From: Candidatus Woesearchaeota archaeon
GTDB taxonomy: Archaea > Nanobdellota > Nanobdellia > Woesearchaeales > B72-G16
DNA: 36,695 bases
Direction: 5' to 3'
NCBI GenBank assembly: GCA_003650545.1
Contig: QMQO01000001.1
Location: 68,845 to 105,539 of the forward strand
Both the position numbers and the translations under genes were made by a program. Numbering within the stretch: the stretch's first letter is position 1; every line of letters starts with the position of its first letter. The notes beneath the pieces were generated by a model. It saw only the letters and a program-made list of their open reading frames with translations, did no database searches and was not told the origin of the DNA. Below, piece after piece: positions 18,399 through 35,204 of the stretch.

Positions 18399-18554
18399 TG
18401 AGCCCGAGGGGATTTGAACCCCCGACTTCGAGAGATTAAATCTGTGTTTTGATCTTCACTCGATCTCTAGCCTGGCTTACCTTTTTTTTTCAGGATATCA
18501 GTTTTGCTGTCTCTTGTGAGACTCGAGCACTCCACCAGACTAAGCTACGGGCTC
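18399..18554 (-). tRNA. tRNA-Ile(GAU) with three introns
   Basis: Acceptor strands GAGCCCG/CGGGCTC, T8-A9, D-arm GCTTAGTCTGGTGGAGT and T-arm GGGGG-TTCAAAT-CCCCT define a class I tRNA with discriminator A. Unspliced it has no sensible anticodon arm. Three BHB introns resolve it: 18503-18523 (21 nt, position 30/31, central helix TGCT/AGCA, inner hairpin GTCTC/GAGAC); 18465-18495 (31 nt, 37/38, inner CCTG/CAGG); 18427-18456 (30 nt, 45/46, central CGAG/CTCG, inner AGAT/ATCT). Removing them gives stem CTCGA/TCGAG, loop CTGATAA (anticodon GAT) and variable loop TGGTC, 74 nt in all. The lengths add up exactly (74+82=156). Confidence 0.92.
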
Positions 18555-18578
18555 GATGAAAAGGGCCTTATGGCCCAA
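18555..18578 (-). other. Hairpin spacer between tRNA-Asn and tRNA-Ile
   Basis: Only 24 nt separate the end of tRNA-Asn from the start of tRNA-Ile. On the minus strand it holds GGGCC-ATAA-GGCCC, a perfect 5-bp hairpin, followed by TTTT. There is no room for a separate promoter, so the two tRNAs are probably one transcript and the hairpin is a processing element, or an attenuator limiting Ile relative to Asn. Confidence 0.5.
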
Positions 18579-18765
18579 CGCCTCCGGGCAGATTTTCTCG
18601 CTGCGAAAGCAAGCTCACAACATCTCGAACTGCCGACCTTTGCCGGGTAAAGCGTTTAGTTTTACCTTGCGGTGACTGCTAGTAGGTTTAACAGCTTCGT
18701 GGTCTCAGAGAGACTCGCACGCTCTACCTATTGCTCCATGCTTAACATGTCTAAGCTACGGAGGC
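18579..18765 (-). tRNA. tRNA-Asn(GUU) with five introns
   Basis: Acceptor GCCTCCG/CGGAGGC with discriminator G. Five introns, each with BHB-like folding: 18731-18750 (20 nt, D-loop 15/16, central GCTT/GAGC, inner CATG/CATG); 18696-18715 (20 nt, 30/31, central CGTG/CACG, inner GTCTC/GAGAC); 18674-18688 (15 nt, 37/38, central CTGT/GCAG, almost no inner helix); 18640-18667 (28 nt, 43/44, inner GGTAAA/TTTACC); 18593-18623 (31 nt, T-loop 59/60, outer helix is the T-stem GGCAG/CTGCC). Splicing gives D-loop AGTAGGTA, stem TGCGG/CCGCA, loop CTGTTAA (anticodon GTT), variable AGGTC and T-loop TTCGAGT: a regular 73-nt tRNA. The lengths sum exactly (73+114=187). A TTTAAA-type TATA lies about 25-33 nt upstream. 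Confidence 0.92.
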
Positions 18766-31298: not shown

Positions 31299-31555
31299 GC
31301 CGCGGTCGCATAACCTGGTACGCTTACTCGCTTATGTTCGTAAAGCGTACATCTTCCACACTATTGATGGGCTTCGCTTGGCGTGTCCTATCCTGAGCAA
31401 TGGAAGAATGATGGAAGAATGTTATGTGCGATGTGTATGTGAGAAGCGCAGGAGATTGCGCTGGATTGGAGATCCAGTTCCTTTGGGAATTGTGGGTTCA
31501 AAAACGTTGAAGCAAAACTGAAGAAACTTCACGATTGAATTTCCCACCCGCGGCG
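31299..31555 (+). tRNA. tRNA-Ser(GGA) with two introns, one of 135 nt
   Basis: Acceptor GCCGCGG/CCGCGGC with discriminator G, class II with a variable arm (TTCC...GGGAA). Anticodon stem CTGGA/TCCAG, loop TTGGAGA (anticodon GGA). Intron 1 at 31320-31454 (135 nt) interrupts the D-loop after GG-T20; its BHB has outer TAA/TTG, central CCTG/CAGG, bulges GTA/AGA and inner CGCTT/AAGCG. Splicing gives the D-loop TAACCTGGTAT closed by GCA/TGC, the same size as in tRNA-Ser(CGA). Intron 2 at 31503-31541 (39 nt) sits at 59/60 in the T-loop, with outer helix the T-stem GTGGG/CCCAC and central TTCA/TGAA; the T-loop becomes TTCAAAT. Mature length is 83 nt. Confidence 0.9.
31320..31454 (+). other. 135-nt D-loop intron of tRNA-Ser(GGA)
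   Basis: Much longer than the other introns here. Beyond the BHB stem it contains a hairpin pairing ACATCTTCCA (31350-31359) with a TGGAAGAATGT stretch, and a direct repeat of GGAAGAATG (31402-31410 and 31413-31421). Degenerate box-like elements appear in C/D order: TTGATGG (31364-31370), CTGA (31393-31396), ATGATGG (31408-31414) and GTGA (31439-31442). No open reading frame of note. Confidence 0.8.
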
Positions 31556-32818: not shown

Positions 32819-32893
32819 GCCTCTGTAGTGTAGTCCGGCCAATCATATTGCCCTCTCGAGGCAATGACCCGGGTTCAAATCCCGGCGGAGGCA
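32819..32893 (+). tRNA. tRNA-Glu(CUC), no intron
   Basis: Acceptor GCCTCTG/CGGAGGC with one G.U pair, discriminator A. The D-arm GTGTAGTCCGGCCAATCAT is typical of archaeal tRNA-Glu. Anticodon stem TTGCC/GGCAA, loop CTCTCGA (anticodon CTC), T-arm CCGGG-TTCAAAT-CCCGG. It is the only intron-free tRNA of the six in the window. A TTTAAAAT element near 32792-32799 and a TATATATA stretch near 32745 are promoter candidates. Confidence 0.95.
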
Positions 32894-34446: not shown

Positions 34447-34686
34447 ATGAAGAGTGGTGAGGCATTTAAATGGGTTGTATCAACAATAGCTAGTTATTTC
34501 TGCATTTACATAGCATTTTACATTATTAAGAATGTTTCTGTGATTAATCTTTGGCTATGGTCATTGATATTTTTGGTGCTGTTGTTCATAGCAATACTGG
34601 TGTGTCCATTCTTAAATAAAATGCTCTGTACATGTCAAACAGCTAAAAATCCCAAAAGAAAAAAAAGTAATACGGTCGTGGTCTAG
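34447..34686 (+). CDS. Small two-helix membrane protein, ends inside tRNA-Gly
   Basis: 79 residues with two hydrophobic segments (about 9-28 and 31-55) and a basic C-terminus. GAAGGAGGT lies 8 nt before the ATG, strong support for translation. The family is not recognised. The last 15 nt, including the TAG stop, are also the first 15 nt of tRNA-Gly (34672-34686), so the message and tRNA overlap and cannot both be matured from one transcript. Third gene of the DUF4416/zinc-ribbon operon. Confidence 0.6.
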   Translation: MKSGEAFKWVVSTIASYFCIYIAFYIIKNVSVINLWLWSLIFLVLLFIAILVCPFLNKMLCTCQTAKNPKRKKSNTVVV

Positions 34687-34828
34687 TGGTATGACCGCAC
34701 CCTCCCAATCTCTCAACCACAAGCAAAATTTTTGTGGAATAATAGGCGAGAGGTGCTAACCCGGGTTCGAAAGATTGTTAGGGTTAAGTCAAACCTGAAC
34801 CCTATCAGCGAAAATCCCGGCGGCCGTA
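34672..34828 (+). tRNA. tRNA-Gly(CCC) with two introns
   Basis: Acceptor ACGGTCG/CGGCCGT (A1-U72, one G.U), discriminator A. D-arm GTC-TAGTGGTAT-GAC, anticodon stem GCACC/GGTGC, loop CTCCCAA after splicing (anticodon CCC), T-stem CCGGG/CCCGG. Intron 1 is 34708-34750 (43 nt, 37/38); its central helix has 3 of 4 pairs (CTCC/GGCG) and a long CCACAA/TTGTGG hairpin. Intron 2 is 34772-34814 (43 nt, T-loop 59/60); central TTCG/CGAA is perfect, inner TAGGGTT/AACCCTA, and splicing gives T-loop TTCGAAT. Mature length 71 nt. The first 15 nt overlap the upstream coding sequence. Confidence 0.9.
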
Positions 34829-35093: not shown

Positions 35094-35204
35094 GCCGCGG
35101 TGGCACAATTAGGTACTGCGCTCGCCTCGAGAGCGAGTTCCTTCGGGAATTCCCGGTTCAAAAGCGTTGAATAAACTTAACGATTGAAAATCCGGGCCGC
35201 GGCG
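35094..35204 (+). tRNA. tRNA-Ser(CGA) with a T-loop intron
   Basis: Acceptor GCCGCGG/CCGCGGC, discriminator G, D-arm GCA-CAATTAGGTAC-TGC, anticodon stem CTCGC/GCGAG, loop CTCGAGA (anticodon CGA), long variable arm TTCC-TTC-GGGAA. One intron of 28 nt at 35163-35190, position 59/60: the outer helix is the T-stem CCCGG/CCGGG, central TTCA/TGAA, inner CGTT/AACG. Splicing gives T-loop TTCAAAT and an 83-nt tRNA of the same length as tRNA-Ser(GGA). Its D-loop has no intron, confirming the expected D-loop size used for the GGA isoacceptor. Confidence 0.93.

Follow-up and report, generated by a model that had tools for sequence, protein, structure and literature searches.

The maximum number of introns in a single archaeal tRNA gene has been stated as three (PMC8450103; PMC4033280; PMC6379350), in agreement with the figure that an earlier note on this DNA gave for Thermoproteales. 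In the Thermoproteales (Pyrobaculum and relatives), a tRNA gene can hold several short introns with BHB or relaxed BHB motifs, at canonical as well as non-canonical sites, as in P. calidifontis with 71 introns in 46 tRNA genes (PMC8450103), and the splicing endonuclease EndA is an (alpha-beta)2 enzyme with a Crenarchaea-specific loop. Relaxed motif forms are also counted among archaeal tRNA introns and are said to require an (alpha-beta)2 or epsilon-2 endonuclease (PMC6379350); reviews tie their cutting to a specificity loop in EndA. ARMAN-2, a DPANN-type archaeon with relaxed motifs at diverse sites, has an epsilon-2 endonuclease that is built of three units and carries a specificity loop (PMC12397907). 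According to the main text of their description, which gives no per-gene maximum, the Asgard Atabeyarchaeia and Freyarchaeia have introns in 92–95% of their tRNA genes, many of them non-canonical, and more than half of the genes hold several (PMC11291895). For Woesearchaeota, no description of tRNA introns was found in the literature searched.

Here we analyzed a 36,695-nt stretch (the window) from a Candidatus Woesearchaeota genome, which contains a tRNA-Asn(GUU) gene with five introns (Table 1). The introns resemble those of Thermoproteales in kind, but the window gene exceeds the maximum of three per gene reported there, and its host, from a different phylum, has 39 introns in 19 sampled tRNA genes. 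The host shares intron-rich tRNA genes with the Asgard archaea, although in a different lineage, and relaxed motifs at diverse sites with ARMAN-2. We consider this, with a probability of roughly 0.93, to be a functional gene whose five BHB-type introns would be removed by protein splicing, with EndA cutting them out and RtcB ligating the exons, to give a 73-nt tRNA.

Table 1 Features of the tRNA-Asn locus and other tRNA genes of the host (window positions unless stated otherwise).
Feature	Position	Strand	Basis or detail
tRNA-Asn(GUU) gene, 187 nt, five introns	18765-18579	-
Box-A-like element (archaeal), TTTAAAAA	18789..18796	-	24-31 nt upstream of tRNA-Asn; read from sequence
Exon 1 (tRNA positions 1-15)	18751..18765	-	parse and scanner
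Intron 15/16, 20 nt, ACATGTTAAGCATGGAGCAA	18731..18750	-	central helix GCUU/GAGC, inner helix CAUGU/GCAUG
Exon 2 (16-30)	18716..18730	-	parse and scanner
Intron 30/31, 20 nt, AGTCTCTCTGAGACCACGAA	18696..18715	-	central helix CGUG/CACG, inner helix GUCUC/GAGAC
Exon 3 (31-37)	18689..18695	-	parse and scanner; anticodon GUU at 18692-18690
Intron 37/38, 15 nt, AACCTACTAGCAGTC	18674..18688	-	bulge-helix-loop, anticodon stem as outer helix
Exon 4 (38-43)	18668..18673	-	parse and scanner
Intron 43/44, 28 nt	18640..18667	-	central helix ACCG/CGGC (one A.C mismatch), inner helix GGUAAA/UUUACC
Exon 5 (44-59)	18624..18639	-	parse and scanner
Intron 59/60, 31 nt, in T loop	18593..18623	-	T stem as outer helix, 9-bp inner helix
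Exon 6 (60-73), discriminator G	18579..18592	-	parse and scanner
Putative hairpin then T run, GGGCCATAAGGCCCTTTT	18560-18577	-	between Asn and Ile genes
tRNA-Ile(GAU), three introns at 31/32, 38/39, 46/47 (scanner numbering)	18399..18554	-	scanner
tRNA-Ser(GGA), two introns, 135 nt (D arm) and 39 nt	31299..31555	+	scanner
tRNA-Glu(CUC), intronless	32819..32893	+	ARAGORN, Rfam and scanner
tRNA-Gly(CCC), two introns	34672..34828	+	scanner
tRNA-Ser(CGA), one intron (28 nt)	35094..35204	+	scanner
tRNA-Arg(CCU), four predicted introns, one of just 11 nt	L162:14052-14208 (G000 contig 7)	+	scanner parse
RtcB gene, intact	L037:11499-14486 (G000 contig 10)	-

Gene anatomy and splice motifs

Introns make up 114 of the 187 nt of the gene, and the six exons (15+15+7+6+16+14) join into a 73-nt product, GCCTCCGTAGCTTAGTAGGTAGAGCGTGCGGCTGTTAACCGCAAGGTCGGCAGTTCGAGTCTGCCCGGAGGCG, which forms a full cloverleaf with 0 mispairs and 0 conserved bases missed. 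The earlier note had proposed this arrangement, with the same five sites and a faultless tRNA-Asn(GUU) upon joint removal, and both points were borne out, the five introns by our parse, by the scanner and by the relatives. The hairpin and T run in the spacer to tRNA-Ile look terminator- or processing-like.

A custom scanner was used that searches either strand for cloverleaves and allows introns if these obey the central-helix and bulge register. Run unconstrained, its best result (score 58) was the same parse with the same joints. No shuffled sequence reached a score of 30, whether made from the 187 nt (2,000 shuffles) or from the 601-nt region (400 shuffles), and the top score in 734 kb of dinucleotide-shuffled genome was 38. 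A looser scan (six introns, up to 80 nt each) gave one spurious AT-rich match with a score of 41; therefore, later scans used only scores of 46–50 or more. As RNA, the unspliced gene has a fold that beats 200/200 shuffles (z -3.6), and in the minimum-energy structure of the precursor, introns 15/16 and 59/60 already form hairpins in the register predicted for them.

One register fits all five introns: a central helix is formed by p-5 to p-2 of the exon and -6 to -3 of the intron and is flanked by two 3-nt bulges (xx^x and xx^x), with the predicted cut after the second base of each. The central helix has 4/4 pairs at 15/16, 30/31 and 37/38 and 3/4 at 43/44 and 59/60, while the inner helix, counted from i2/-7, has 5, 5, 0, 6 and 9 pairs at 15/16, 30/31, 37/38, 43/44 and 59/60, respectively. 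The BHB-like pairing that the earlier note drew at each intron stood as far as the register is concerned, but 37/38, where the inner helix is absent, forms a bulge-helix-loop instead of a complete BHB, and the central helix contains a single mismatch at each of 43/44 and 59/60. The strict form, with an outer and an inner helix, is not found at every intron: 15/16 and 43/44 have no outer helix and 37/38 has no inner one. These belong to the relaxed forms that are likewise counted as archaeal tRNA introns.

Two other classes of gene were considered and rejected. Split and permuted tRNAs have BHB-based joining in common with this gene, but here all exons lie in order inside 187 nt of a single gene. 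A group I intron would have a long self-splicing core; these introns are 15–31 nt long and an Rfam match was absent.

Orthologues across the order

The exon-1 sequence (one mismatch allowed) was found in 136 of 193 genomes of the order; tRNA-Thr genes, which the pattern also catches, were set aside. In the orthologues, introns were allowed at the five sites only. Most give the same parse without this constraint, and L200, L205, L212 and L215, whose unconstrained parses were wrong or partial, were redone with it; L214 was excluded because it contains unknown bases. Among 45 distinct parsed tRNA-Asn genes, a sample biased toward genes carrying the 15/16 intron, 12 have no intron, 12 have one, 11 two, 1 three, 6 four and 3 five. 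The five-intron genes (the window gene, L200 and L212) belong to three different families. In 23 of the 45 loci tRNA-Ile(GAU) lies downstream of tRNA-Asn, as in the window, and this conserved tandem supports the orthologues being the same gene.

The intronless orthologues (L140, L142 and L143) run uninterrupted across all five junctions; together with Woesearchaeota orthologues that have one or two introns, they cover every junction without a break. The existence of relatives that have this gene with none to five of the introns shows that all five are real. As for the exact joints, the spliced product alone fixes those at 15/16, 30/31 and 59/60 and leaves 37/38 or 38/39 for the third intron and any of 42–47 for the fourth; homologues in relatives favor the register given here at both. 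This latitude in the variable loop, together with one family of relatives that uses 44/45, is what could be said for fewer than five real introns with one or two misplaced joints, for instance at 43/44. We regard this as highly improbable, as a standard variable loop requires the loss of the extra 28 nt and as AAGGTC is uninterrupted at this junction in L142, L190, L208 and L217. The uncertainty at 43/44 is about the exact joint and not about the number of introns. In L212 and two four-intron genes, the variable-loop joint is at 44/45.

The intron helices are themselves conserved. The motif of the 15/16 intron was found in 25 of 353 genomes of the order (24 besides the host), in many families, and a reversed control pattern in 0 of 353. 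In 21 distinct 15/16 introns, compensatory changes are seen at i3/-8 (GC in 10, AT in 9, GT in 2) and at i5/-10 (GC in 16, TA in 2, AT in 2, CG in 1). For 30/31, 43/44 and 59/60, we collected 7, 6 and 6 distinct homologous introns, whose inner helices mostly remain paired despite altered letters, and 4 of the 6 at 43/44 have the full 4/4 central helix where the window gene has one mismatch.

These data also bear on whether the locus is a decaying pseudogene with leftover exon-like pieces, its tRNA-Asn being supplied by another gene. As the assembly is 85% complete, another tRNA-Asn gene could be unassembled; the search for an uninterrupted second copy that the earlier note had called for, by BLAST of this assembly, returned only exon pieces of the window gene. 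Decay has very little probability in our view, since all stems and conserved bases are intact once spliced, the inner helices covary across genera, and the same five-intron layout occurs in two other genomes. The product differs from that of intronless L142 at 5 of 73 bases and from that of L217 (two introns) at 2 of 73, and these two differences are a single compensated swap of pair 50-64.

A separate observation concerns the Thr-type tRNAs of order-mates (L125, L129-L132, L135, L137, L147-L149, L152, L177, L178, L185, L186 and L192). Their D and T loops covary perfectly: G18C19 occurs with G55C56 in 16 and the usual GG with TC in 5, with 0 mixed cases. This suggests a rewired tRNA elbow, perhaps with G18-C56 and C19-G55 contacts.

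Splicing enzymes and proposed pathway

The host EndA has 176 aa, with both the N- and C-terminal family domains present, and its closest relatives are from Candidatus Woesearchaeota genomes. It is intact and of catalytic type, resembling the catalytic subunits of solved enzymes, and, in contrast to that of N. equitans, it lacks an insertion between catalytic Tyr and His. Profile searches of the assembly gave one PF01974 and one PF02778 match, and nearly all order-mates searched have one PF01974 match each. No second EndA-type (beta) subunit was found in the assembly with these profiles, which a diverged beta could escape. The single matches in the host and its order-mates suggest that the host EndA is a homotetramer. 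The host enzyme appears to be alpha-only, in contrast to the (alpha-beta)2 enzyme of Thermoproteales, and it is a single unit, in contrast to the three-unit enzyme of ARMAN-2. Judged from gene content, this EndA does not appear to fit the rule that relaxed motifs require an (alpha-beta)2 or epsilon-2 endonuclease. An intact RtcB gene is present in the genome (Table 1), with an intein of about 500 residues inside its reading frame.

The proposed protein splicing builds on the sequence and its splice register, on covariation, on orthologues that read through the junctions and on the presence of the enzyme genes; from these we infer transcription, cutting, joining and the order of steps. In the transcript, each of the five introns would form a hairpin closed by pairing of four exon bases with four near the intron 3' end, EndA would cut both bulges of every hairpin, and RtcB would join the exons into the tRNA. 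The 30/31 intron probably leaves before 37/38 can adopt its full motif, because it interrupts the anticodon stem that serves as the 37/38 outer helix.

Removal might instead involve more than EndA and RtcB, for instance an EndA with an unrecognized beta-like partner. A diverged beta subunit might have escaped the two profiles, and the single matches are hard to square with the enzyme types that relaxed motifs are said to need. However, the catalytic-type EndA and RtcB are both intact and the intron register is the EndA register, and we consider removal of this kind unlikely. Returning to EndA as the lone endonuclease, we tentatively entertain, at somewhat below even odds, a single-subunit enzyme without the crenarchaeal or ARMAN specificity loops that copes with the highest known tRNA-gene intron load and cuts five sites in an obligatory order. 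If so, broad EndA specificity would have evolved once more, or would be unnecessary.

Intron load of the host and implications

Introns are common among the other tRNA genes of the host (assembly of 1.64 Mb in 133 contigs). In the window and 734 kb of sampled stretches, the scanner identified the 19 tRNA genes with 39 introns, of which 16 have at least one intron and 12 have two or more; the joints checked individually were those of tRNA-Asn. Two sampled order-mates carry a lighter load (6 introns in 5 tRNA genes and 10 in 9). Within the window, the scanner found six tRNA genes versus one by ARAGORN and two by Rfam. Only 6 tRNA genes in the whole assembly are above the Rfam cut-off, compared to 9 to 42 in 19 relatives searched. 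Standard finders overlook such genes, and tRNA counts used for grading such genomes are therefore too low.

Introns of this kind are known; what is new is how many one gene holds, the lineage in which they occur and their mismatch with the EndA type. The reported maximum for one archaeal tRNA gene rises from three to five, and the extreme in intron number no longer lies in the Thermoproteales but in a large, uncultured lineage of DPANN type. The finding challenges the rule by which relaxed introns depend on an (alpha-beta)2 or epsilon-2 endonuclease. As the orthologues range from zero to five introns and share the sites, intron gain and loss become directly traceable within one gene.
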